The position numbers and the translations under genes were made by a program. A stretch of DNA of 64,000 nt from Karstenula rhodostoma CBS 690.94 (lineage: Eukaryota; Ascomycota; Dothideomycetes; Pleosporales; Didymosphaeriaceae), in contig MU001492.1 of assembly GCA_010093485.1 (NCBI GenBank), forward strand, positions 336,228 through 400,227. Reading direction: 5' to 3'. A model generated the notes under the pieces. The model saw only the letters and a program-made list of their open reading frames with translations, was not told the DNA's origin and did no database searches. The stretch's first letter is position 1; every line of letters begins with the position of its first letter. Below are positions 304-40,928 of the stretch, piece by piece.

Positions 304-2601
304 ATGGGTCTCGTTGGCAGGACCAAACGGCTCTTTGCTGAAGACCACAATGTCCAGAGAGCACGACGAGATGGTGCGAGAGCTGCTCGTGCCCTTCCTC
401 GAGCAACAGGCAATTATCTAACCGACAAGGTTCCGGTGGTACACTGGGCTCCGCAGTACAACCCGCGATGGCTGGCCAACGACGCCCTGGCTGGCATCAC
501 AATCGGAGTAATGCTCATTCCTCAAGCACTGGCCTACGCGAAGATTGCAACGATTTCTGGAGAGTACGGGTTGATGAGTAGTTGGCTGCCCAACTTCTTG
601 TACTTCTTCATGGGCACCTCCAAGGGTACGCACTCAAACATTCCTACAGACTCTTCACATCGAGTTCTGCCAGGCTTGAGCAGGCACTCGAAACAGAACC
701 TTGCCTTCAGCCTTCGAGCCACGAAGCATCTGAACGAACAGTGCTAACGAGGAGAGTAGACATGTCGACAGGACCGACTTCTCTGATGGGTCTCCTGACG
801 GCGGAGATCGTCCGTGACTACACAAGCGAGGGGTTCTCCGCGCAGGCTATCGCTTCTATGGTAGCCATGTGCGTCGGCATCTACTGCTTGATCATCGGCG
901 GCCTCAAACTCGGCTTCTTGCTTGAGTTTGTCTCCATACCGGTGTTGCACGGCTTCATCTCCGCTGCGGGTATTGTGATCATGCTCGGCCAGATCCCGTC
1001 GCTGTTTGGTGTCAAAGTTGGCTTGGGCACAGGCACGATCATACACGATCTCTTTGCCCAGATTCCGGTCAGTAGCTTCCGGAAGGTAGCAAGTAGAGGC
1101 ACGCCTAACCGTGTATAGGACTTCAAAGGACCCACTGTTGGTGTGGGATTGGGTGGTATTGTACTTCTAGTTGGTCTGCAGAAGATGGGCCAGAAGTGGG
1201 GCAGCAAAAACAAGGCCATCTGGTACATTGGCCTGGCTCGTGCAGCCATTGTCCTGGTGCTTTTCACCGGCATATCGTACGGTGTAAACAAGAACATCGA
1301 TCTTGAGAACGATGATCCGATCTGGGAGCTGAGCAAGGTCAAGGTGCGTTGTCTTCTCTTTGCAATACTAAGAATTCCCCTAGGAGACAGGCTTGCCCTG
1401 ATGCCCTGTAAAGTCAAGAAGCCTCACACTAACTTGTCAACAGTCCAAAGGTATCAACGCCCCGAAGATGCCCCCAGGCGCGCTCTTCTCGAAAGTATTC
1501 CCACGCGCCGTTGCACCCTTCCTCGCCGCCGTCATCGAACATCTCGCAATCGCCAAAGCCTTCGGACGCAAGAACAGCTATGTCATCGATCCCGCGCAGG
1601 AACTCGTCTACCTCGGCGTCACAAACTTCTTCAACAGCTTCTTCTCCTCCATGGCCGTCGGTGGTGCCATGTCGCGCACAGCCGTCAACTCGTCCACGGG
1701 CGTCAAGTCGCCGGCCTACGCCCTCTTCACGGGCGGCGTCGTCGTCCTGTCCATCTTCAAGCTCAGCCCCGCCCTCTTCTGGATACCCAAAGCCACCCTC
1801 GCCGCCATCATCGTCACGGCCGTCTGGTCCATCCTCTCGCCCCCCAAAATCTTCTGGCACTTCTGGAAAACCTCCTTCGTCGACTTCGTCGCCGCGATGC
1901 TCGCCTTCTGGCTCACCCTCTTCGAGACCAGCGAGATCGGCATCGGCAGTGCAGTCGGCTTCCAGCTCGTCTACCACATCCTCGCCGCCGCCTTCTCACG
2001 CGTGCGTCGCATCACCGCCCTGCCCGAGCGCGACCCCATGCTCGACTTCGCCGACATGCCCACCGACGTGCAGGTCTTCAAACCGCACCACTCGCTCATC
2101 TTCTACAACGCCTTTGGCATCACCTCGCAGTGCTTCGACGCCATCCAGACGTACTCGTCCGGCGCAAACATCTCTTTCGAGGTGCTCCGCGCGCAGCGCA
2201 ACTGGAGCACCGCCGGCGAGCGCCGCGCAAAGGCGCTGCGGAAGCGCGCGGGCATCTACTTGGACCCGACTAAGCTGCACCTCGTGGTGCTGGATATGAG
2301 CATGGTGCCTACGGTTGATACCACGGGGCTTACGGCGCTACAAGATCTCAAGGCTGATCTGGAGCGGTACGCGGGCAAGGCTGCGGAGCTGCGCTTCGCG
2401 AATATGCATGATGGTGTCAAGGAGCGCTTTGGGCGCTTTGGGTGGGAGCTGTACGATGGGGGTGCGTTCCGCGATGATAAGACGTCCGAGGCACGCAAGG
2501 GCAACGCCGTGTTCAACTCCGTCAGCGAAGCTGTTCGTCATCGCCGCATGGCCGAGGACGAGCCGGACGAATTCCTGGTCGTGGGGTCGGAGAAGGCGTA
2601 G
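304..2601 (+). CDS. SulP-family sulfate permease with STAS domain
   Basis: Plasma-membrane anion transporter of the SulP/SLC26 family, expected to import sulfate for Cys/Met synthesis. I read four exons: 304-625, 760-1067, 1119-1343 and 1444-2601, which join in phase to 670 residues. The ATG sits in a CACC ATGG context. The N-terminal part has the family pattern (NDALAGITIGVMLIPQALAY) and a STGPTS segment right after the first splice, so exon 2 is well fixed. Many hydrophobic helices follow. A cytoplasmic STAS domain covers about residues 494-650, with the typical LVVLDMSMVPTVDTTG strand-loop. Well-known fungal permeases (CYS-14, Sul1/2) are longer, about 780-860 aa, so this is a compact member. 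The substrate (sulfate or another oxyanion) is inferred from the family. No regulatory site was identified. Confidence 0.9.
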
Positions 2602-3414
2602 CGAGCTTTCCGATCCTCCTTGTGTGGGTTGGCGCGTCGGTTCGTATACCCGCACGCGCGTGGGTACACTGTCACTTCTGCTGTGCTGGGTGGTATTTCT
2701 CTCTTTTCGTCGTCTCGCTGCAGGGCAATGGCGGAGGATCTTCGTGCATGCAGCTTACGCTCCTGCTGCTTTACTTTCTTCCCTGTTTCCTTCACCGCAC
2801 ATACCTTACTTCGTATCTACTGCAAATAGACAATCACGACCTTCCAAACCCACAGACTCCGTAGCGTGCCATCATGTCCGGACCGCACACCTAGCTTTGC
2901 CACTGTGTGAGCCCGATAGCTTGCGCGGTGGGCGCGTAGCAAGATGACGAGGCTAGCCGGCTGTGGAAGGAACCACAACTGCCTCCGAGTGTGCGTGACG
3001 CGTACGTTGGGCTCCTGGGCCTGCGTCCGGGCGGCTTGTCTTACGTAAGTACCCAGTAGCGTAGCATCAGTCTTCCAAGACTGCGGCGTAGATGCTATGT
3101 CCCTCCATACGCTTATTCTGCCACGTGGTTTCCAACGGTCCTTGCTGAGCAGCCGATGCTGCACCGTGAACCACAGGAGCGGAGTACGCTCAAACACCGG
3201 CATCGAAACTGGTTTTGTGGCAGAAACTAATCGGGCAAGGAGATTCTGTACTACAGTCCAAACCCCCTCTTCAAGTTCGATATCTTTTCCCTCCGCTATC
3301 AAACCTTCCCATATATTTATCTAGAGAACCTATACTCACTCTCCCTATATAACCCACGTCTCCCAGCAGGGTAGTTAACAGAACTAAACACTATTTTTCG
3401 CAGAGAGCATGACA

Positions 3415-3539
3415 GGCTCTCATGGAAGCATGAAGACTGGAGGCCTTCGCCGACAGATATAGAATAGTAGAGTCGACCTTGGGGTAACTCAGCTTACTAT
3501 ACAAGTTTACGATCTTGACGTGGAACTAATACTATATCG
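3415..3539 (+). repeat. Dispersed repeat family A, copy 1
   Basis: About 125 bp that align by eye with 38223-38344 (same orientation) and, over the 3' two thirds, with the reverse complement of 32585-32664. Shared landmarks are GGCTCTCATGG at the left end and AACTCAGCTTACTATA near the right end. Most mismatches are C/T or G/A, as expected for copies mutated by repeat-induced point mutation (RIP). No coding capacity is seen. It is probably a remnant of a transposon end. Confidence 0.7.
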
Positions 3540-4234
3540 TCGGCCCCGTGTTCACCTGCTAGTGAGAGAATGGTGTGCGACAGATTATTCCGCGGCGGGG
3601 GCTGGTGGCGCGTGATCGTGTCATGTCCACGGGTGAGGCGGCGATGCGGTAGGCTTTGGGGTGGTGGTTGAGGGCGGGATGGTTGACGAATGGGGGGTAC
3701 GTTCTCTGGGGTGCTATTTCTGCTGGGTATTACTGGGGGGGAACATGGGCTGTTGGATTGGACTTCTTGGGTGTGTTGGTGAGGGTATGGAGGATGGTGG
3801 AGGGTGGAGGGCATATAAAGTTCAAGAAGAATGTAAAATTGGTGTGGCAGGTAGTAGACTATGGCGATTCAGGTGCTGAGAAGAATTTTATGTAAATAAT
3901 ATTATTATAGTGGCCGAGCTGAACTTGTGGTACGAACGCGCATCCAAGCGCTCGATTTTGGTTGTTATGTTAGTTGTGCCGGATGGGTCTTGTGTCTTAC
4001 ATAGGAGTGTTAAGAGCCTGTCTGGTCGGAGGTTGGAGGATGCAGCAAGGAGGTCAAGGAGAGTAAGAGATATGACGGGGAAGGTGAAAGGTGTTGGAAG
4101 AAGTTCTTGTGCTCTATGATTCCTGGAGATTTGATCTGAAGCCAGGGAGCTACTGATAACGATATACTTTTATAGTAGCTCCTATTTCTTAGTCCTATCG
4201 CTTTTAATACCTCTACAGACCGCGTTCTTTTTAA

Positions 4235-4318
4235 TGGTTTTCTGATTGTTGACACGAGCCACGACGTGGTATCCCCGTGAAGCGATAGACAAAGATATAG
4301 ACTGCGACTACCGCCCAA
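4235..4318 (+). repeat. Dispersed repeat family B, copy 1
   Basis: About 84 bp similar to 15579-15657. Both begin with GGTTTTCTGATTGTTGAC and contain GATAGACAAA followed by GACTGC. Differences are mainly transitions. This looks like a short non-autonomous or relic element, and its type is unknown. Confidence 0.65.
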
Positions 4319-5192
4319 AAGCAACACAAAATGAAGCGTTGTAGATGGTTAAACGCACACCGCGTCCGACACCAGCTTATTATTCGACTTGCTCCATGCC
4401 AATTCCCTCTTTCAGCAGTACACCCCACTTCCGTACACTCGAAGACCCCCATCAACCATCCCTCTCGATAAGAACCTCCATCCAAGTCAAAGTGACATTC
4501 AAACAAGGTTACCCGTAGTCAGGGTAACGTCTTGGCATCTTCCATCGCACACTCCAAGCGCCTGGTCAACCACAACGTCGTCCAATCCCGCCTACGGCAC
4601 TACCTTTCATATGATCGACATCACCCCAGAGCCGCATGAAACAACGACGTATCCCTGTCGGTACTGGATACCCCCATTATCGGGAAATTGCTGCGACAGG
4701 AAGGTGACTGCGACTTGCCCCGCAGCCAAGGTCTTGGAAGCACCAACGAACAACGCCCTCGGGACTTTTCCGCAAAGCCGACTTGATTGATACCAAGACA
4801 GCTCTATGAATGCGGGGTGACGAAATGATAGCCGGAAGATGTTCGAAAAATTCCGCGTGTTATTGGGGTTGGCGGGATGGTGGTATCTCTACTCTACCGA
4901 CATCGGAGTTGCGGAAGCCTGCCGAGTTCACGAGCCGATGGTATAGATCATATAGGTAGGAGAGCGACAGATAGGCGGATTTGCGTGGCGGTGTGGGTAT
5001 CGGGGCTTAGCAGAGATGTATGCGCCGACAGATGAGTAGGTGTGTCGTGCGAGTCTTTGCTGATAGCTGCGATAGTGATTGCGTCGGCATGCTCAAGCGG
5101 TATGGCCACTCTCTGGATAGATATATAATCTCCATTTGCGTTGTTGAGTAGCTGTGTATTTTAAGCCCCACTTTTGAGTCTCGATACTAATA

Positions 5193-6756
5193 ATGAAGTC
5201 GGCGACTGGACTCCTCATAGGCGCGGGTGCTCTTCTCAGTGCATCATGCGTCAATGGTCTTGCCGAGGAGGTTTTTGCGGCAATTGACAAACAAGACGAC
5301 GGTTTGAGGACAGTCAACAAGGAGGTAGGCTTTTAACGGTTGCCGGAAATGAAGTTTGCAGCTGATAGAGCGGACAGATCTGGGAGAACCCCGAATTGGC
5401 CTACAAAGAAGTGCACGCGCACAAGACTCTTACGGATTTCCTCGAAGACCAGGGTTTCAATGTGACCCGGGGCGCATACAACATTAGTACTGCTTTTCGT
5501 GCGGAGTATGTTAGTGGCAAGGGACGCGCTGTCTCGTTCAACTCGGAATTCGATGCGCTTCCTGGCATTGGACATGCTTGCGGACATAACCTGATTGCTA
5601 CTGTCGGTGTTGCTGCTGCGATTGGTGTGAAGGAGGCTTTGAAGAACCAGGGAGTGTCTGGTAGGGTGGTGTAAGTGGCATTGGTCTCGAGGTAATACGG
5701 TTGCGTGAAGCTGATGTGGTCTACAGGCTCATCGGTACACCTGCAGAAGAGTCCATGGGTGGCAAAGTCAGACTTCTGGAGGCTGGAGCATATGACGATC
5801 TCGACTGTAGCTTGATGGCCCATCCTGGAAACAGCCTTTATGCGTCATACGGTCGCACGTTGGCCTCTTGGAGAGCCAACGTCACTTGGAGTGGAGAAGC
5901 TTCGCATGCGGCAGCTGCGCCTTGGATGGGCCGCAATGCTCTCGATGGGTTTGTATCTGCGTACTCAAGCACCGGGCTTTACCGCCAGCAGCTCATGGCC
6001 ACAGATCGCATTCATCATGTGATTCAGGGAACCAGCGAGATGGTAGCCAACATCATCCCGGATTTTGTCAACAGTGTGTGGGGTGTACGAGGCAAATCAC
6101 GGTAAGGCCTTCCGCAGTTTATCCTGCAGGCGCTCCAGCTGACTCAGTGATTGCATACAGACCCCGCGCTGAGCAAGTGCGAGAGCAGCTTTTCAGGATC
6201 CTGTATGCATCTTCAAATGCCACCAACACGTCAATCGAGATCACCCCATTCCAGGACTACTGGGACCAGAATCCCAGCTTCCAGTTAGCAAGCGCATACT
6301 ACGAGCTCCAAAAAGAATACCTCGATCCTTCAAAGGACACCGAGACGGCGAACTTCACGATCACAGCACCGGAAGACGACGACGGCGAAGCATCGGCTTC
6401 ATCTGATCAGGGCAACGTGTCGTGGTTCCTGCCTTCGATCCAGGTCATCTTCCCAGTTGGGGGTACCGCGCCGGTGCACAACGCTGGATTCCGCGAGCTT
6501 GCTGGGACTGTGAGTGAAGTCTTGTTGGTCGTATTCTCGAACAGTGGCTGACACAGAGTAGGATTTTGCCCATGAGCAGGCGATCAAGACGGCCAAGGCG
6601 CTTGCTTTGACGGGGATTCAGGTTCTGCAGAACGAAACATTTGCTGAAGCCGTGTGGGGAGAGTGGGAAGCGATGATTGCTGAGATATCGGTTGGCTTGA
6701 AGGAGGACAACGGTAACTCAACGAAGAGATCGGTGAGGAAGCGGCACGTACACTGA
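5193..6756 (+). CDS. Secreted M20-family amidohydrolase (PM20D2/ACY1L2-like)
   Basis: Metallo-amidohydrolase expected to cleave dipeptides or N-acyl amino acids. Five exons (5193-5324, 5378-5670, 5727-6101, 6161-6509, 6562-6756) give 447 residues. The metal-site motif is GHACGHNL (His110 and His113), and the catalytic/metal acidic pair is GTPAEE (Glu149-Glu150). SGEASHAAAAPW marks the lid domain. The GIGHACGHNLIA string is that of the PM20D2/ACY1L2 branch (beta-alanyl-lysine dipeptidase in animals). The first 24 residues (MKSATGLLIGAG...CVNG) look like a signal peptide, so the enzyme is probably secreted or vacuolar, which is unusual for that branch. The C-terminus is Arg/Lys/His-rich. The substrate is not known. 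Confidence 0.88.
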
Positions 6757-7817
6757 AGAGTCAGTGTTGAGATTGCCTAGGGCGGGAGTTTGCGAGAAGG
6801 CTCATGATATTGAGTTTTGAGCTTCACGAGTCCAAGAAGAAATGCTGTATGTTTGTGCAGACCTCTGAAAGAGAGCTGATCTGCGCCACTCAGAAGGGCT
6901 ACGGCATGGGATACGGTGGAGCTGGCATAGAAAAAGCATGCAAGTGACAGGACTTCGATTCTGTTAATGATCGATTGATGCTGAGACTGAGGCCACATTG
7001 ATGAAAGGAAGGCTCATCTTTCACGTCACGTGATCCTTCCGTTTCGTCTCTAGCGCCAGAGTCACCATCCAACGGGAAGTTACGGAGAGCATCCGCCGTG
7101 CAGTTGTCGTTCTTCATCGCCTTCAACATTTCTGAATCTCCTCAAATCTCGACGTCTATCTTCCAGAGAACTACAGGCGTCGTTGTGTCGGTCAACGCTC
7201 GTTGCGACATCCGACTTAGCCTTCCGTGCGGCCGATCGCGACGAAGTGCGACTGCCGTGATCACCCGAAACATTCAAATTTTCCAGCTCACACGCGACCA
7301 CATCAACATGGCTTTCGCCGTCAACAGCGCGGAGGGCGCTATGAGGAGCTCGGTATGAGTGTCTGCGCGGAACACGAGAATACTTCCCAGCGTGAGTACG
7401 ATGTTTCTGTTCAAGTCTAAGCTGTTGCGTCGTTCCTGCCGGTTCCGCTTCTCTTGTTTGCCGAGCTTTCTCCGTGCCGCTTCTATCATGACCAACGCTC
7501 GAATGCCATGGATCGCGAATCGTTCTTCTCTTTCTTTGAGACTGTGATCAACTCGCAACCAAAAGAGCATTCATACCGGGATAGATGACGGCCTTCTTGA
7601 CATGCGCAACACTTGCCAAACACTAAATCCTTTGGCCAACATACCGATTCATCCACGTCGCTCGTAGTTATTCTCTTACTGGTTGATCATTTCACTAAGC
7701 TCTCGAATTATGCGCTATAGGCACACTCATACAGTTCCACTTCAGCGTCTGATGCGAAGAAGCGACGCTTGAACTCTATCAAAGGCACCTGCTGGCCTCA
7801 GTGGCAGGCTCGCCACC
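6757..7817. other. Intergenic region
   Basis: About 1 kb between two plus-strand genes. No supported exon. A TCACGTCACGTGATCC stretch at about 7020-7034 contains a CACGTG E-box-like palindrome, which could bind a bHLH factor. That is inference only. Confidence 0.45.
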
Positions 7818-31823: not shown

Positions 31824-32706
31824 GCACTTTGATGGGCTCTTGGTGGGAATATAGCGGGCTAGGAGGAATTAAAGATGAAGGGTAACACGTATTCGCTGCC
31901 ATAAATAACCTGTCTTCTCGCTCGAGCAAAAGTTGGAGTTGCTGGACCGGAGTGGCTAGTACACAGGTCGTAAAGCGGAGTTTGTAAGTGTCGTTTTTTT
32001 TTGGGGTGGTGTGCGCGCTGTGCTGTGCTGTGCTGGTGTTGGTGCTGGTGCTGGAGCTGCAGGCGTGTACTTGTTGTGCGGGATAGGTAGGTAGGTGCGG
32101 TGGCTGGATAATAAGACGACATAGTAGACTTGAGCGACATCATAGAAGGCAAATTTATAACCTACAGAGCTCTAGAGCTAGGCTTGATGTTGGGTCTTGG
32201 GTTAGTTATGCTGTTTGTCTACTGGGGATGTGAATGTGCACGGATGAAGGCGTTTAATGACTTGATGGGAAGTTGGGGGGAGGGGGGTGTGTTGGAGGGG
32301 TGCGGTGAGGGTGACTGGTGGTACCCAGGGGTCTTATCATCACAAACGTGCTGGTGATGTTTGTGGGGAGTATATTAGTAGAGGGTATGAGGAGTCCTGG
32401 TTGGTCTGGTTTGTGATCTTGCGTAGAGGAGCGGGGTGTCGCTGTATATGACAGCCTCTTCAGCTTTTCTTGGCTAATAAACGTAATATAGTAGTTCGAA
32501 TACGCAAATGTGTGTACTTTCCTTGTAGGTTACTTCATTGCGTTGGCGTGATGATGCATGCTCTCACGGGAAGGTGAACACCGGCGATATAGTACTAGGT
32601 TAAGATTGTAAACTTATTTAGTACGCTAAGTTACTCTAGGATTAGCTGTTTTATATCTAACTAGTACCTTACTAAGTTCTTTTACTATGTTTTACTATAG
32701 CTTATA
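31824..32706. other. AT-biased intergenic region at edge of accessory island
   Basis: About 880 bp after the AP-3 beta gene. From about 32490 on the sequence is strongly AT-rich (TTACTATGTTTTACTATAG) and holds the inverted copy of repeat family A. No exon found. Confidence 0.55.
32585..32664 (-). repeat. Dispersed repeat family A, inverted copy
   Basis: About 80 bp matching the reverse complement of the right part of 38223-38344 and 3415-3539: GTACTAGGTTAAGATTGTAAAC corresponds to GTACTAGGTCAAGATTATAAAT there. Differences are mostly transitions, with AT gain, consistent with RIP. Confidence 0.65.
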
Positions 32707-33067
32707 AAAGTGCGCGTGCGTGCGCTGGCGGGCGAGGACAAGGTGTTTTCACATGGTGACTTGCATCGTGGGAATGTATTTGCTGATGCGGAGGGTAACA
32801 TCACGAGTGTGATTGATTGGGGTGCGGCGTGCTTCAGCTTTCCCCAGCGCGACTACTTCGCGGCGAGGTTGCGGTCTCACATGGCGAGTTGGGACGAGGC
32901 TTTGGAGGGGATCAAACATGATACTTCGCGAGCTTCTGGAAAGCGCGGCAAAACACAGTAAAGGAACTCGGGGGGCTTTAGAGGGGATGTTCCCGGCAGA
33001 TGCAAAAGAGGATTTTATTTTCTTAAAGGAGTTTAATAATGCATTGGTGGTTTTCAGTAGTTTCTAG
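32707..33067 (+). pseudogene. 3' fragment of an APH-type phosphotransferase gene, disrupted
   Basis: The translation FSHGDLHRGNVFADAEGN...DWG...PQRDYFAARLRS matches residues from about 223 to the C-terminus of the intact gene at 39984-40928. The 5' two thirds are missing; upstream is AT-rich non-coding sequence. After DEALEG a 76-bp insertion, bordered by near-identical CTTTRGAGGGGAT (32900 and 32976), shifts the frame and brings a TAA. The last 23 codons (FPADAKEDFIFLKEFNNAL...) continue in the other frame to a stop at 33067. The catalytic motif HGDLHRGN is still intact. It cannot make a working kinase. Confidence 0.85.
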
Positions 33068-33500: not shown

Positions 33501-34458
33501 CTACTTTTCAGCGCGACTGCGCTGGTCCATGATGTCCACATCCCCCCAGCTATTACCGGCAAAAGCCACAGACCCAGATCCATCTGCAGTTGTTTCTGAG
33601 ATGTTCTGCTTTCTCGTTCCCGTCCACCCTGCTGGAGCGTTTCTATTCCCAGCATAAGCGAAACCCGCGTTCGTCGCTTTGGTGCCCTTGATTGTTTGCT
33701 CCTGACCTGTGCGCGCGAATACTAGTTCGGCAAGAGCTTCGTCGCTCATGTTGATAAGAAGTTGCTTCGAGATTCTGCGTTCATTGAGTTTGTCGATCTC
33801 TTCTTCGTCTGATTTATCTTTTTCAGGTTCAGCTCTCGGTAGTCTTTCCAAGCATTGTTCGATTGTGTTCAATTCCGTTTCCGCTTTGACCTTCCCTTCC
33901 ACGATGGTTGCTTCCCGTGTTTTCAACAACCCATCCTTTACGTCTTTCATATCCGGATTTTGTGCGATAGTCAAGCTTAGGACGTGTTAGCAGAAAGCCG
34001 GAGTCTTGCTTGGGCAGTACGCAGAATTGAACTCACACGGTTGCGGCTCCAAGGGCAAGGTTGAGCGTGAGCTTAGTGTCCCTCAGCTTCTCCCGAAACC
34101 CTTCGATCTTGTCTTCCCCAAAGTAAACCTTCAGACGCGTCAATAGAGACATCTTGTCTCCTGTAGTTTCGTTTGACCATTTGCTCAGGAGTTGCCCGAA
34201 AGCAGTACAGTATTGATCGCAGTGCTTGAGTGCTCCCTCAACACCGCCACGTCGCAGAACTGGAGGCTTGGGGCCTTTCATGGCGGCGAAAAGCTCTTCC
34301 AGTACCGACTTCAAGGCCTGGAGATCGTCACCGATCTCTTTGACAACCTTTGGTGCATCTTTGATGCCATTAATCGTGTCGATGAGAAATTTCGTGGACT
34401 GTATGGCAGCTGTAGTCACGGCGAGTACGCCAGAAATAGTGCTAAGAGGATCACCCAT
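33501..34458 (-). CDS. HeLo-like domain protein with two C-terminal amyloid-motif-like repeats (putative cell-death effector)
   Basis: Two exons (34458-34037 and 33975-33501) give 298 residues, close to HET-s (289). The N-terminal about 140 residues are helical and fit the Helo_like_N/fungal STAND N-terminal family: MGDPLSTISGVLAVTTAAIQ, then KDAPKVVKEIGDDLQALKSVLEEL. In this family the first helix inserts in membranes when the protein is activated. A charged helical linker (about 150-232) leads to a Gly/Asn/Ala-rich tail with two related motifs, ATNAGFAYAGN (241-251) and ADGSGSVAFAGN (271-282) followed by SWGDV. The divergent NLR next door starts with ATNGALAIAGN. This layout equals HET-S/NWD2-type pairs, where NLR motif amyloid templates the effector tail. 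Function is inferred; the acceptor CTAAG at 33976-33980 is the least certain point. Confidence 0.75.
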
Positions 34459-35142
34459 TTGGTGCCAAGGACGGTTCTCACGTTAGGATGGTGATTGTAG
34501 CGAGAAGGTTGAAGCTATGGTTGTCTATAACATACGGCACCAGCTCTCTAAGTAGGGATTTTTAATGGTGCATTCCGATATATAGTTAGTGATCTATTCC
34601 GGAAAAGCGGCGGCGGTACACCACTGGGAGATGTAGAGCCTAGATCCACACCAGAGACTGTGTCACGCGGGTCTTATTTCTCACGGATGCAGTATTGAGA
34701 TAGCCCATCTGTAGTGATTGGCGGTCCGATCCGTCCATAGCGACGGAACCCAGCCACAGAACACATAGCTCAAAGTTTGAATGCTCGGCTCAGTCGTTCA
34801 ATGTTGTGATTGGTAGCGTAGTGCATTAGCGCTGCGCCGTGGCGTGAATAGCTAGACTCTATTATCGTGCCCCGCGCGAGGCTGATGGGATGTGCCGAAA
34901 CTCAAATACAGGCAGCCCTAACAGTCGCGAGCAGTCATCCGTAAGCCTCACACTCTACGCTGGTCGTGCATCCGGGCATCTTCCTCGAATGTTAGTTATG
35001 TCAAAACTCGTTGAGCGACCGCGCCTATCCTGAGTTTCGAGGGAATTTATCGTATGGTCAGATGTCCTTGTAGAGTAGCGAGAAAGTACCTGTGAAATCC
35101 TACCATTTGGTCAGTTTCACGTTCCTGTCGACGTACAAGTAC
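34459..35142. promoter_or_regulatory. Shared divergent promoter of the effector-NLR pair
   Basis: 684 bp between the two start codons. Contains no exon or repeat I can recognise. Head-to-head arrangement suggests co-regulation. Confidence 0.5.
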
Positions 35143-38139
35143 ATGGCGACCCGTCCCTCCGACACAATGGACCTAGTACCGCGATTACAATCTATCGATC
35201 GCACGAGCGCTACAAACGGTGCGTTGGCAATCGCTGGTAATGTTGGAGGAAATGTGTACAATTATGCAGGATCATCCAGATATGGCAAGTTTTACAAACC
35301 CAGACATGTGATTTCTACTAATTTCCATGTAGTCGACGAGGAAACGAAACGAGAAGTCTGTCTGGACACCCTTTTCGTCACCGACCCAGAGATCGTTCGT
35401 TCAAATCTGGTCGAGCAGAAAGGAGAAAGAGTTCCGAAGACATGCGAATGGATATTGCAAAACGCAGCGTATCAAGGGTGGACGGAGAAAGATAATGGTC
35501 TACTCTGGATCTCTGGCGAGCCTGGGCAAGGGAAAACAATGATTTCAATATTTCTGACACAGGAGTTAGAGTCCAGAGAAGAAAAGGTCTCAGCAGTTAC
35601 ATTTTTCTTTTGCAGCCACCAAGATGATGATCGCAAGTCCGCGGCAGCAGTCCTCCGAACCTTGCTGTACCAGATTCTCACGAAACGACCCAACCTGGTG
35701 GAGCACTTTTGGCCTTATCTGAAAAGTGCGCATAACGAGAGAAACTCGGGGCGCAAACGACATGATATGGTCTTAGCATCTGAGAAAACTCTGTGGGAGA
35801 TGTTTCTCCTATGCCTCAAGGATCAACGACTAGGATCTCTGCTCTTTCTCCTGGATGGTGTAGACGAGTGCACTGACGACATTTTTGTGACCAAATTCAC
35901 TGGTTTGTTCGCCGAAGCATCATTGATCGCTCCTGGAAACAAGTTCAAGATGATTTTAGTTAGCCGCGATAACGTACATCTGCATGGCCAAGCGCAAATC
36001 AAGCTGGACCCAGACCAAAAATATCTTCTGGCCACGGATATAGAGCGGTTCATTTCTGCCCGAGTTGCTGCTGTGCCAAGGCTACGGGGACTCACCGACT
36101 CTGTTCGCAAAGAAATCAAAAAAATCCTGAAGGATAAATCCGGTGGTACATTTCTGTGGGTCGGCTTCGTGGTTTATGAGCTATCTCGTAAGAAAACAGT
36201 CTCAGAGATGATGGATTCATTGGAAACAATTCCTCCGGACCTTGACGGGATTTACAAGAGGATATTGGATCAAATCAAGGAAGAACACAGAGAAGAAAGC
36301 GCAAAACTCCTTCGACTGGTCACGTATGCTCTCCGGTCGCTAACTTTGGATGAGGTGGCATTTGCGCTCGACATTCAGGCGACTGATCAGCTTGATGCGG
36401 AAACAGTTGTTCGTGACAAAGTAGCGCACTGCTTTCAAATCATTACTATCAACGAGCGGAAGTTGACGCTCGTCCATCAGTCGGTTAATGACTACCTACT
36501 CCGTGCATATGGAAGGGATGCAAACAACGACGGGACGATGGATCCTTTCTGTGGTAGTGTTGAGGACGGACACTTGAGCTTAGCGGAGAGTTGCCTGAGG
36601 AGATTGTCGACACCACCGGTAGGACATGCTTTTTGGGTTTATGCTCAGAGTTTCTGGGCCGAACACGTAAGGGATGCCGGGGACATGGGAACACAGCTCC
36701 TCGATCGGTTTGGTGCTCTCTTCGATCCGGACTCCCCATTCTTGAGAGAGGCACTCTGGAGTTTGCTAGGGGCATCCATAGATATGCGCTTTAAACTGCA
36801 CCTCTTCTGCGCAGCGAATCTTACTTCGTGGGTGCGCAAAATTCTCAGCGAGAGAAAGTTGGGCTCGTTACCCCAGCCCGGCCCTGGGATACAATCTGAT
36901 GGGGACGAAGTTATGCTTGTTATTGCCTCGACGTACGGACACGAAGCTATGGTGCGGCTGCTTCTCGAACAAGGGGTATATTCTAACCAAATGGATGGGC
37001 TATACTTTACGATCCCACTGCATGCCGCTGCGAAGAATGGGCACGCAGGCGTTGTCAAGCAACTCATTGATGGCGGTGCGAGCATAGACAGCAAAGACAA
37101 GTTTGGGCGGACTGCTCTCTACAATGCAGTTCAAAACAATCATCTTGAGTGTACTCAAAGGATTCTGGAGACACCCGCTTGCAACCCGAACATCTTAAAT
37201 CTGGATGGTTCGACTGCACTACATAAAGCGGCCCGCATGGGGAGCGACAAAGCGGTTGAATTGTTAGTTTCCTACGATGCTGTTTTTGGCCTGGATGATG
37301 AACAGAACACCCTTACTTGGGACGCCATCTCCTCCAATACCAGACCAAAGCGCATCGAAGGGTATCTGAGGATAGCCAAGCTGCTACTGAAACATGTCCC
37401 AGATGGAACCCTGGCCACAAATGGTCTTCAAGGGCACTTGAAGCTGGCCGTGAAACATTGGAACTATCGTTTGGCACAACTTCTCATTTCCAAAGGTGCA
37501 ATATTTGTACCTACGCACTACCAGTGGAGCGGAGACGAACCAAATCCTTTGCATGTCGCCCTACAACTAGAGAATGAAGCTCTCATCGAGAACTTTCTTC
37601 AAATAGGACATCCACTCAATGCTTGGAATGGTATCGCACCACTATACTTTGCTGCATGGATAGGTAGTGAAAGTATCGTACGGCTACTCCTCAAGTATAA
37701 GGCCAATGTGAACGAAGAGAATAACTACCTCTGCCCTGATGAGGGGGATGGAGGAAAACCTCGTGGCGGAACAACGCTTCATGCTACCGGGGACGGAGAA
37801 GAACTTCTTGGCGGAACAGCGCTTCATGCTGCTGCCTATCACGGATCCGAGCCCATCGTGAAGCTGTTGCTGGAGCGGAAAGCAAATTTCAACGTTGGCT
37901 GTTGGTGGAACCGCACTCCGCTCTGGTATGCGAATAAACATCCTCGAGTGGCCACAATTCTGAAGGAAGCTGGCGCTCACGAATTGCGTGTTCCACACGT
38001 GAGCAGAAGAGAGCAACTCAGCTTGGCTATGGGGCGTCACCAACTTCTACTAGCGGATGAAGAGCACATAACCGGGAAATATGGAGAGTTCTGGAAAGGA
38101 GGCATACCGCCGTCTCGAAGTACGCTGAACGGGACATGA
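35143..38139 (+). CDS. NACHT-ankyrin NLR (STAND) with N-terminal amyloid-motif-like segment
   Basis: Intronless gene of 998 residues from the ATG at 35143; a second in-frame ATG nine codons in (35167) has a better context. There is no N-terminal effector domain. Residues 21-43 (TSATNGALAIAGNVGGNV...) match the tail motifs of the neighbouring effector. A pre-NACHT linker with DTLFVTDPEIVRSNLVEQKG and WILQN follows, as in many fungal NLRs. NACHT: Walker A GEPGQGKT (125-132), Walker B FLLDGVDE (to 242), and helical lid/winged-helix regions to about 520. Ankyrin-like repeats cover about 586-948, for example LHAAAKNGHAGVVKQLI, RTALYNAVQNNHLEC and TALHKAARMGSDKAVELL. Expected role: intracellular receptor that oligomerises on ligand sensing and triggers the adjacent HeLo-like effector (heterokaryon incompatibility or antagonist response). 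Ligand unknown. Confidence 0.85.
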   Translation: MATRPSDTMDLVPRLQSIDRTSATNGALAIAGNVGGNVYNYAGSSRYGKFYKPRHVISTNFHVVDEETKREVCLDTLFVTDPEIVRSNLVEQKGERVPKTCEWILQNAAYQGWTEKDNGLLWISGEPGQGKTMISIFLTQELESREEKVSAVTFFFCSHQDDDRKSAAAVLRTLLYQILTKRPNLVEHFWPYLKSAHNERNSGRKRHDMVLASEKTLWEMFLLCLKDQRLGSLLFLLDGVDECTDDIFVTKFTGLFAEASLIAPGNKFKMILVSRDNVHLHGQAQIKLDPDQKYLLATDIERFISARVAAVPRLRGLTDSVRKEIKKILKDKSGGTFLWVGFVVYELSRKKTVSEMMDSLETIPPDLDGIYKRILDQIKEEHREESAKLLRLVTYALRSLTLDEVAFALDIQATDQLDAETVVRDKVAHCFQIITINERKLTLVHQSVNDYLLRAYGRDANNDGTMDPFCGSVEDGHLSLAESCLRRLSTPPVGHAFWVYAQSFWAEHVRDAGDMGTQLLDRFGALFDPDSPFLREALWSLLGASIDMRFKLHLFCAANLTSWVRKILSERKLGSLPQPGPGIQSDGDEVMLVIASTYGHEAMVRLLLEQGVYSNQMDGLYFTIPLHAAAKNGHAGVVKQLIDGGASIDSKDKFGRTALYNAVQNNHLECTQRILETPACNPNILNLDGSTALHKAARMGSDKAVELLVSYDAVFGLDDEQNTLTWDAISSNTRPKRIEGYLRIAKLLLKHVPDGTLATNGLQGHLKLAVKHWNYRLAQLLISKGAIFVPTHYQWSGDEPNPLHVALQLENEALIENFLQIGHPLNAWNGIAPLYFAAWIGSESIVRLLLKYKANVNEENNYLCPDEGDGGKPRGGTTLHATGDGEELLGGTALHAAAYHGSEPIVKLLLERKANFNVGCWWNRTPLWYANKHPRVATILKEAGAHELRVPHVSRREQLSLAMGRHQLLLADEEHITGKYGEFWKGGIPPSRSTLNGT

Positions 38140-38222: not shown

Positions 38223-38344
38223 GGCTCTCATGGGAACATAAAGACCGGATGTAAGCCAATGCCTTTTCCAGTCAGATATAATACTTAATCCTAGTACAAC
38301 TCAGCTTACTATATAAATTTATAATCTTGACCTAGTACTGTATC
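38223..38344 (+). repeat. Dispersed repeat family A, copy 3
   Basis: About 122 bp aligned with 3415-3539 in the same orientation. Compared with that copy it has more A and T (ATATAAATTTATAATCTTGA versus ATACAAGTTTACGATCTTGA), fitting RIP-type C-to-T and G-to-A change. Inverted relative to the copy at 32585-32664. Confidence 0.7.
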
Positions 38345-39359
38345 ATGGGTTAACTTAGACCTACTTTACCCATCAAATGCGGGTGGCTACCCATTACTCC
38401 CGCCTCATCAAAGACGCCTGCCCTGTGTGTCATAGGAGGACAGTTGAAATTTCCATTCCTCTGGACCATCTCCGGGAAGAGAAAATGCTCGAGTTGGACT
38501 TCGGCGACACTTGGAAGCGACTCGTATTTCACTCTCGCCGAGACGAGCTAGTCCAAAGGATCTGAGTCGCTTGCGAAGCAAGCACAATGTCATGCATAGC
38601 CCTGTAGCACATAGCGCCAACTTAGCGTTCGCTAAGATGAAAGAGCCCAGCGAAATCCAGGAGAAGGAAGCACTTACTGTAGGAGGATTCTAAGGCACAG
38701 ACGGGAAACCTTGGCAAGCAGCATGTCTGGCTGACCGAAGCGGCGGCTCATAGATTGAGTGAGGTGGCGAGGGAGAAACATAGATGAGGAAGCCTGAGCA
38801 GGGCTACGCTCTCGTCAAGTCTCCGTGGGAGGGTTGATATGCGATTTCTGGCTTCCTAGACTGATTAACCTCTGCCACACTCCAACGCTTGTCGCAACTG
38901 TGTTTAAAGCTTTGATTAAGCATCGAGACCGACCGAGAGCTGGACTTGACGGATGAACTTGGAACAGGTCGATCGGCCTTTGAACTGCTCTGCTTCATCA
39001 CAGTCCCAATTTCTAATTACCATCGACAACACTGGCCTTGATACATACCTGACCTCACGCCTATCTCACGCTCATCCCACCCAGCTCTCCACATCAAGAC
39101 TCAATCTATTGCCCTATCCTAAAATGCTACATATTGTCACACCACCGAGTTCCTTTACTGTGTTTTGCCGTGGCTTGCAAAAGCGCGCGAAGTATCACAT
39201 TTGACCATGTTACATAGCCCAGATCCACCACACCTACTCTCATTTTGTTTTTCACACAAGACTCCCTCCTGGCTCTCTCTATCCCATTTTCCATCTAAAT
39301 ACTCAACTACAATATAAAATAAATGACCTACGTGTTGAAAAAAAAAAAAAGGGCAGCAT

Positions 39360-39426: not shown

Positions 39427-39983
39427 TCAACTACTCGTTGTGAATGACAAGTAACTCACCATTTATAGATTGGAAGCTAGGTGTAATTCCTTCATCTCCC
39501 CTACCCTAACACAACCCATCACCCCATCCTACTCCTCCCCCATCCCGCATACACCCCATCAACTCCCATATATTTATCCGCACCACCTCACTTAGCAAAC
39601 CCCTCCCCACCCTCAACAACCGACCCTACAGCCTTCCTCTCTACAACATCCATCCCCCAACCTCTTTCACCTCTTAGCCAACCCCTTCCCAATTTATATC
39701 TACGCGTCCAAACCCCTTAGTACCCCTACCTCTATCTAATTCCAAGATCCCGAAACCATGCCGGTAAATAGTTTTGCTTAAAGGAGCGCTTTAACACTAC
39801 AGTGGACTCTCTTACCAGCTTTTCTTGGCTCTGAGTCTCGACGGCGTAGTTCCTAAAACCAACTGTGTACAGTTTCCTTTCAGGTCACTCGATCGGGTTG
39901 GCGTGACAGCGCGGCGTGACTCGGTAACGTGGGCGTTCCACCCCGCCACCTCCACCACCTCCACCTCGACAGCATCTGCTTCA

Positions 39984-40928
39984 ATGAGCCAGCTCGAAAG
40001 CAAACCCATGGACGTCCGCGAGAGAGTTCTGCTACGGCGCCAACAGCTAAAGGATGGAACTCGACAACGTGTTCTCCCAACTGACCCACCGCCTTCGCCG
40101 CCAACCATTTACGACACTGCAGACATTCCAGAGGGTGCGATAAACCTAGCCCCTGAGAGGCTCTCATCGCAGATATTCTACGTTCCGTCGAGCGGGCTGA
40201 TACTGAAGGTGGGGTCTAGGGTGCGCGTCGTGGAGGCAGATGCTATGCGCTTCGTGGCTGGGAACACATCGATACCTGTTCCCGTCGTGCACGAGTCCTA
40301 CGAAAAGAACGGCATCGGCCACATCTACATGAGTAAGGCTGAGGGTGTGGCGCTGCGGAGTGTCTGGGACGCTTTCTCCGACGAGAAACGCAACGTCGTT
40401 GTGTCGCAGCTCACGGCGTACGTCTGTGAATTGAGGACGCTGTCAGAACAGTTCTACGGCAAGCTTGGCCGCCTGGAAAGCGAGGACATATTTTTCCACC
40501 ACCTTTGCGTGGCCCACAAGACTGAGCATGACTATCACTCTTATGGGCCGTTCAGTTCGCGCGATGAGTACAATGAAGGTCTTGTTCAGGCCATGTGGAA
40601 TGCGCGGCCGCCGGGGCAGTTCTCTGCCCAGGACGAAGTATTGATTGCGCGCGTGCGGGCGATGGCAGGCGAGGAAAAGCTCTTCTCCCACGGGGATCTT
40701 CACCTCGGCAACATCTATGTCGACCATGATGGGAATGTGACGGGACTTCTCGACTGGGGTTGCGCTGGCTTCAGCATACCTCAGCGCGATTACTTCGAGG
40801 CGAGGCTACGTTCATCCAACCCAACCTGGGACGACGCCTTGGAGAAGCTTTTCCCACCAGACGCGAAAAAGGACTTTGATTTGTTCAAGGAGTTCAACAC
40901 CGCGCTGACTACGTACAGCGGTTTTTGA
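39984..40928 (+). CDS. APH-type phosphotransferase family protein
   Basis: Member of the aminoglycoside phosphotransferase/choline-kinase-like fold (PF01636 type), very common in fungi, mostly of unknown substrate. One exon from the first ATG, 314 residues. The catalytic loop HGDLHLGN (His236-Asn243) has the H-x-D-x4-N Brenner signature and the metal-binding Asp is in LLDWG (Asp257). The N-lobe has LILKVGSRVRVVEADAMRFV with the likely ATP-contact Lys. C-terminal PQRDYFEARLRS and FKEFNTAL are shared with the broken copy at 32707-33067. The open frame extends upstream to 39825 without an ATG. A role in antibiotic resistance is not implied. Confidence 0.85.
   Translation: MSQLESKPMDVRERVLLRRQQLKDGTRQRVLPTDPPPSPPTIYDTADIPEGAINLAPERLSSQIFYVPSSGLILKVGSRVRVVEADAMRFVAGNTSIPVPVVHESYEKNGIGHIYMSKAEGVALRSVWDAFSDEKRNVVVSQLTAYVCELRTLSEQFYGKLGRLESEDIFFHHLCVAHKTEHDYHSYGPFSSRDEYNEGLVQAMWNARPPGQFSAQDEVLIARVRAMAGEEKLFSHGDLHLGNIYVDHDGNVTGLLDWGCAGFSIPQRDYFEARLRSSNPTWDDALEKLFPPDAKKDFDLFKEFNTALTTYSGF

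Follow-up and report, generated by a model that had tools for sequence, protein, structure and literature searches.

A HeLo-like gene head-to-head with a NACHT-ankyrin receptor gene

The window analysed here is a stretch of 64,000 nucleotides from the pleosporalean ascomycete Karstenula rhodostoma CBS 690.94 (contig MU001492.1 of assembly GCA_010093485.1, positions 336,228 to 400,227). Between positions 33501 and 38139 it contains two divergently transcribed genes, one for a HeLo-like protein (the effector) and the other for a NOD-like receptor (NLR) with NACHT and ankyrin domains, which a sequence-only reading had proposed to be an amyloid-signalling cell-death pair with a possibly undescribed motif. 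The features of the locus are as follows (r0, r1 and r2 are copies of a motif described below):

33501..34458, minus strand: effector gene, HeLo-like, 298 aa, 2 exons (34458-34037 and 33975-33501), same protein as P171DRAFT_492553
33976..34036, minus strand: effector intron, 61 bp, phase 2, GTGAGT...TAAG, with a branch-like CTAAC
33762..34452, minus strand: HeLo-like domain PF17111, effector residues 3-212 (Pfam, E = 4.8e-31)
33642..33704, minus strand: repeat r1, effector residues 232-252, QEQTIKGTKATNAGFAYAGNR (own motif profiles)
33549..33614, minus strand: repeat r2, effector residues 262-283, RKQNISETTADGSGSVAFAGNS, turn with one extra residue (own motif profiles)
34459..35142, no strand: divergent intergenic region, 684 bp from start codon to start codon (gene coordinates)
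35143..38139, plus strand: NLR gene, NACHT-ankyrin, 998 aa, single exon (open frame, Pfam)
35182..35244, plus strand: motif r0, NLR residues 14-34, RLQSIDRTSATNGALAIAGNV (own motif profiles, pairwise alignment)
35440..35967, plus strand: NPHP3_N/NACHT nucleotide-binding domain, NLR residues 100-275 (Pfam)
36868..37902, plus strand: ankyrin-repeat region, NLR residues about 576-920 (Pfam)

Both gene assignments made by the sequence-only reading hold. The spliced effector model is identical over its 298 residues to the public record, and its HeLo-like domain is recognized by Pfam. The NLR is encoded by one uninterrupted frame, from the ATG at 35143 to the stop at 38139, with matches to NPHP3_N (E = 1e-33), NACHT (E = 3.3e-7) and Ank_2 (E = 5.1e-53). 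No ATG precedes 35143 in this frame, which is open only to 35074; a short upstream exon may lie inside the intergenic region. The window NLR was itself absent from the 114 matches of the protein search for which it served as the query; in public records the gene is therefore likely to have another model or none. In both gene models given here the motif copies belong to the translated sequence, and the possibility that the pair consists of pseudogenes was discarded since both frames are open. The ankyrin region of this NLR has no array of similar copies; only one 45-bp doublet (37744-37830) was seen.

The shared motif and its relatives

The two proteins had been read as sharing an 11-residue motif. 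The similarity is real: alignment of NLR residues 1-75 with the 78 C-terminal residues of the effector gives a Smith-Waterman score of 47 (BLOSUM62), equalled by 2 of 5000 double shuffles, and the best match between the full-length proteins falls at the same place. The unit, however, is 21 residues long, and it occurs once in the NLR (r0) and twice in the effector (r1 and r2). In HET-s numbering all three copies have Gln 3, Ile 5, Thr 8, Ala 10, Ala 16 and Ala 18, followed by Gly 19 and then Asn 20. Gln 3 and Gly 19 are 16 residues apart in r0 and r1, which is exactly the spacing of the HET-s-related amyloid motifs (HRAM); an additional turn residue is found in r2 and in neither of the other copies. 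The motif had been thought to have one residue more than the HET-s repeats, because the bulky hydrophobic residues that its copies carry at positions 15 and 17 were taken as core positions; this is incorrect for r0 and r1.

Published surveys allow a comparison with the HRAM superfamily. Its members are characterized by Gly 19, by hydrophobic residues at positions 5, 8, 10, 16 and 18 and by a preference for Arg or Lys at 15; Gln at position 3 marks the HRAM2 subfamily, while Gln at 16 or 18 marks HRAM5 and HRAM4 (PMC4518210). In that survey of 155 double-repeat HeLo-related proteins, 98 adjoin an NLR gene and 154 have an r1–r2 loop of 6–18 residues (PMC4518210). The window pair has the same layout, i.e. 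two repeats in the effector separated by a loop of 9 residues, a single copy at the N-terminus of the NLR and adjacent genes (684 bp between start codons), together with Gly 19 and with Gln at 3 and Ala, not Gln, at 16 and 18 in every copy. The fit of the core is uneven: Ile 5 is hydrophobic, Ala 10, 16 and 18 are small and agree weakly, and Thr 8 is not hydrophobic.

Matches to established motif models were looked for as well. PF11558, the HET-s prion domain, matched neither the effector tail nor the NLR N-terminus (E up to 10); this model is matched by only 38 of the 155 double-repeat HRAM proteins (PMC4518210). PF17046, the sigma/SesB tail, was not among the Pfam matches of the effector or of its tail, the PP motif core NxGxQxGxN was absent from the last 78 effector residues and NLR residues 1-75 (pattern search), and the PUASM pattern FxGxGxQxxGxGxF was also absent, the effector domain being PF17111 and not PNP_UDP.

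All motif profiles were built in this analysis. Six r0 motifs were picked by an effector-derived profile (>8 bits in the first 110 residues of 114 related NLRs), without the window NLR. The resulting six-motif profile gives 22.5, 15.3 and 22.5 bits for r0, r1 and r2 (0 of 10,000 shuffles each). A ten-motif profile of r0 segments from other NLRs, again without the window NLR (four of the motifs were chosen by eye and one came from a second Karstenula NLR described below), gives 26.8 bits for the NLR, 21.0 for r1 and 24.2 for r2, values reached by 0 of 10,000 shuffles of the NLR N-terminus and of each tail half. With either profile, the motif copies are the top-scoring places of their whole proteins. 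In a leave-one-out scan of the 114 NLR N-termini, 10 reach at least 24 bits and the next 11.7 bits; nine of these ten belong to the profile set, and the remaining one, P0093, shares its motif with member P0092. When 10 NLR N-termini picked for a visible motif, both Karstenula NLRs included, were aligned with MAFFT, Ile 5 and Gly 19 of r0 stood in invariant columns. The nearest bridging motif is that of P0128, identical to the window r0 at 11 of 21 positions, and Thr 8 is present in 4 of the 10 motifs of the ten-motif profile.

With the two Karstenula effectors as queries, 80 HeLo-like proteins were retrieved (8000 candidates scored). Leaving the window effector aside, a simple pattern detects an HRAM2-kind repeat in 37 of 79. 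Among 71 repeats from 36 related effectors, Gln 3 occurs in 61 and Ala 16 in 62, where the 36 r1 rows were found by a pattern limiting some positions, 3 included, and the r2 rows were unrestricted. Ala 16 followed by a hydrophobic residue at 17 is usual in these repeats. Position 15 is Arg or Lys in 27 of the 36 r1 repeats; of the 35 r2 repeats, only 5 have Arg or Lys at this position and 22 have Val, Ala, Phe, Ile or Met. In an alignment of 56 proteins (A3), the Gly of the window r1 (G250) lies in a column conserved at 90% or more. A profile of nine tails, hand-picked from the family and including that of the window effector, has as its best PDB match 6eka_A (E = 5.3e-4), spanning both repeats; with the whole A3 alignment the same entry is again at the top, weakly (E = 0.033). 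We take 6eka to be the amyloid core of HELLF; its record gives Podospora anserina chromosome 3, 78 residues and five chains. Since r0 profiles that exclude the window NLR find all three copies and the tails of the family match 6eka_A, the suggestion of an undescribed motif family is not supported.

Additional elements resembling each other follow r0 (35245-35271, GGNVYNYAG) and r2 (33501-33548, WGDVDIM), and a G-x-V-x-F-A-G-like stretch is seen at the same place in several other NLRs. HRAM proteins have a short segment with aromatics and diglycines after r2 (PMC4518210), to which these elements may correspond. A SesB-type PF17046 tail is found on the same HeLo-like domain in 14 of the 80 proteins, including ones from Penicillium, Aspergillus and Talaromyces; the occurrence of HRAM2 double repeats and of SesB tails on one HeLo-like domain across genera looks like an exchange of signalling tails. 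Some of the relatives are named 'Azaphilone pigments biosynthesis cluster protein' in public records and a few 'Cytochrome p450'; the former label was apparently taken from the name of PF17111, PigL_N.

A second pair in the genome and the surroundings of the first

A further pair with this motif arrangement lies about 120 kb from the first, on the contig of the window (locus L028, positions 2357-7500, i.e. G000:C1:248,857-254,000). It consists of a HeLo-like gene, whose 296-aa product is identical to public protein P171DRAFT_425760, and of a NACHT-ankyrin NLR gene 1.5 kb downstream (L028:4765-7500, 883 aa; our own model, with one 84-bp intron chosen among five open splicings). Its motifs are SQQQIHGVSAQDHSNILAGNF (r0), SGQDISDIVTSDNSQALVGMP (r1) and INQLIRGVKTEGGSRAIVGVY (r2), with Gln 3 in all. 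The effector gene has a 52-bp phase-2 intron at a place that aligns with the intron of the window effector gene. The ankyrin array of this NLR has a 99-bp period (about 6 copies, 85–87% matches).

Outside Karstenula, the records of a related effector (P0033) and a related NLR (P0093) of Xylaria grammica both give a contig of 50,128 bp and the two are therefore probably on one contig. P0057 and P0118 are likewise both recorded on a contig of 1,282,220 bp, the P0118 model being without a clear r0.

Within the window pair, BLOSUM62 sums are 41 (r0–r1), 42 (r0–r2) and 38 (r1–r2), and between the motifs of the two pairs they are 4–25. Because the former exceed the latter, the three motifs of the window pair show joint evolution; by these sums those of the second pair do not. 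The second r0 has no preference, giving 24 and 25 with its own effector and 25 and 23 with the window effector. For the second pair, alignment of the NLR N-terminus with the effector tail scores 33, a value attained in 100 of 5000 shuffles; the cross-pair scores are 27 and 28 (628 and 623 of 5000).

The genome has at least 7 PF17111 loci, those of the window pair and of the second pair included. A third HeLo-like gene lies at L029 (G000:C8, near 271 kb). In the frame read, its tail retains no more than a segment resembling the motif's first half; no P-loop frame of at least 100 aa was found within the surrounding 8 kb. L030 and L032 each have a P-loop frame near the HeLo-like locus, which looks like an NLR fused to it or lying beside it. 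The genome search also returned L031 and L033. No second copy of the window NLR N-terminus was detected in its own genome (E up to 10).

Around the window pair, the following features were recorded:

32586-32662, 32912-32974, 38270-38344 and 39142-39204: dispersed repeats of a 77-bp and a 63-bp family, flanking the pair in opposite orientations
32701-32958: fragment of an APH-type phosphotransferase gene, on one side of the pair
39966-40925: longer APH-type paralogue, apparently intact, on the other side

Each repeat family occurs at 40 or more genomic places, those of the window included (the best 40 of 60 and of 234 candidates, all matching). The idea that these inverted flanking sequences delimit a transposon containing the pair was dropped, as they are dispersed repeats. 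The APH-type fragment is 61% identical to the paralogue over 71 residues.

Interpretation and comparison with known systems

The window pair is best interpreted, on the evidence of its sequences, as a divergent HRAM pair of the Gln-3 kind, with a probability that we put at about 0.85. The full 21-residue register together with Gln 3 leads to HRAM2, since Gln 3 marks that subfamily. The idea of an amyloid pair is thereby retained as far as the architecture goes: a HeLo-like effector and an adjacent NLR share a motif at the C-terminus of one and the N-terminus of the other, and the genome has a second such pair; what falls is its attribution to an undescribed family. The pair is a further, divergent case of a known system and not a new motif family.

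Several observations weigh against this assignment. Position 15 is Leu, Phe and Val in the three copies instead of the favoured Arg or Lys; position 8 is Val, Ile or Phe in 71 of 71 relatives' repeats but Thr in all window copies; and Ala 18, common to all window copies, occurs in 2 of the 71. The effector-derived profile (the 71 repeats, neither Karstenula effector included) misses r0, which scores −4.5 bits, a value reached by 2766 of 10,000 shuffles and exceeded by another place of the NLR, at residue 586; r1 has only 4.2 bits. (The same profile gives 11.0 bits for r2, with 7 of 10,000 shuffles as high.) If the nearest relative, P0128, is removed from the six-motif profile, the scores of r0, r1 and r2 are equalled by 9, 77 and 1 of 10,000 shuffles. 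The window tail alone did not find 6eka when compared with PDB by phmmer (E up to 10), and a protein search with the tail only gave one match among 17 candidates, the window effector itself. Finally, in the NACHT tree the window NLR lies outside the main motif-bearing clade, which is well supported and holds the second Karstenula NLR.

In this tree (101 of 116 NLRs entered, 97 regions after length filtering) the window NLR has a long branch (0.99) and groups with nine NLRs (support 89/94, the branch not being starred) whose N-termini either differ in kind or start only a short way before the NACHT domain; of the nine, four (P0108, P0119, P0121 and P0130) look HRAM-like by eye and score 3.2–11.6 bits under the r0 profile. 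Many public NLR models begin inside or just before NACHT, so that absence of a motif there says little. The motif label, assigned by eye to 12 rows, changes 9 times on the tree, at least 6 of the changes being forced by starred branches, and because of this the NACHT phylogeny alone does not place the window motif in HRAM2. Either lineages of NLRs exchanged the motif class, or the window NLR is an early branch.

Three other explanations were considered. The pair could be decayed or re-purposed, with HRAM2-derived motifs whose Ala-rich core with Thr 8 is no longer amyloid and genes persisting otherwise or by chance. Thr 8 and Ala 10, 16 and 18 in all three copies, the poor fit of the effector-derived profile, the long NLR branch and the low identity of the effector (19–30% to 54 of the 55 other proteins of A3, 54% to a fragment) would agree with this. 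Nevertheless, both frames are open, Thr 8 recurs in other NLRs, and Thr 8, the hydrophobic 15 and Ala 18 are departures common to the three copies, as joint evolution predicts; decay is accordingly improbable. It is highly improbable that the genes lie side by side without being partners, r0 serving another effector or the effector another receptor. For these motifs, partners encoded apart from each other have been proposed (PMC9815663), but r0 scores far better with the repeats of its neighbour than with those of the second pair (8 and 11), a search of the genome with the NLR N-terminus finds only itself (E up to 10), and the other PF17111 loci include the second pair, L029 with its partial motif and L030 and L032 with P-loop frames of their own nearby.

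A separate motif family resembling HRAM by convergence would account for the fruitless tail-only search and for the hydrophobic residues at 15 and 17 and Ala at 16 and 18. We regard it as the least probable explanation, given the complete register with Gln 3, Ile 5 and Gly 19, the bridging r0 motifs of other NLRs, P0128 being the nearest, the position of the tail after the same HeLo-like domain and at the same place as HRAM2 tails, and the frequency of Ala 16 with a hydrophobic 17 among the relatives.

As the two proteins share a sequence of HET-s type, the NLR very probably switches on the effector by passing on an amyloid fold. A ligand of the ankyrin region would make the NACHT domain oligomerize; the clustered r0 segments would then form a beta-solenoid rung, which would template the disordered effector tail (r1 and r2) into the same fold, and the templated tail would switch the HeLo-like domain to membrane attack and thus cell death. 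We infer these steps from the literature, by homology with HET-S/NWD2 and HELLF (PMC4518210, PMC9815663, PMC5485727, PMC7889193, PMC8280340 and PMC12261475). Thr 8, Ala at 16 and 18 and the bulky side chains at 15 and 17 also raise an unlikely alternative: in each rung the second strand could be flipped, or displaced by one residue, and the core packed unlike those of HET-s and HELLF, in which case no cross-seeding would be expected with the second HRAM2-type pair 120 kb away. Against it, the relatives commonly combine Ala 16 with a hydrophobic 17, and residues such as those at 15 are frequent in their r2 repeats; what remains unusual is Thr 8, Ala 18 and, in r0 and r1, the bulky residue at 15.

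Should the proposed mechanism be correct, a single nucleus would contain two paralogous pairs of receptor and killer with diverged amyloid motifs, and would offer a natural test of the divergence that an amyloid code needs before cross-talk between death pathways ends. The window pair would also test the tolerance of a HET-s-type core to Thr 8 and Ala 18. The discovery itself is modest, PMC4518210 alone reporting 155 double-repeat proteins, 98 of them beside an NLR gene. No description of the pair was found among the open-licence papers listed; the supplementary motif lists of the surveys may already include it.

Several known systems resemble the window pair to different degrees. HET-S/NWD2 of Podospora anserina (HRAM1) has the same gene-pair logic, the effector carrying two repeats and the NLR one, but HET-S has a HeLo instead of a HeLo-like domain, NWD2 ends in WD repeats and not in ankyrins, and the HET-s prion-domain model is not matched by the window effector or its tail. 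HELLF of the same species, like the window effector, is a HeLo-like protein of less than 300 aa beside an NLR, FNT1, but in 6eka a Gln directly precedes the conserved Gly of each repeat, where the window effector has Ala. HELLF (277 aa, adjoining the NLR gene fnt1) is described as HRAM5, with a beta-solenoid nearly identical to that of HET-s (PMC7889193), and its nuclear magnetic resonance structure has been reported (PMC8280340); in the table of PMC4518210, P. anserina stands under HRAM1 and HRAM4 only.

The second Karstenula pair shares with the window pair the domain architecture, the place and phase of the effector intron and r0, r1 and r2 copies with Gln 3. Its genes are in tandem and not divergent, its effector has the usual HRAM2 residues at 8, 15 and 18, and the two pairs are 41% identical in the NACHT region and 28% in the HeLo-like domain. 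The HRAM2 HeLo-like/NLR pairs as a group (PMC4518210) share with the window pair a HeLo-like domain, two C-terminal 21-residue repeats, a copy in the adjacent NLR, Gln 3, Ile 5, Gly 19 and the loop length; Thr 8, a hydrophobic 15, Ala 18 and the extra residue in r2 set the window pair apart from them.

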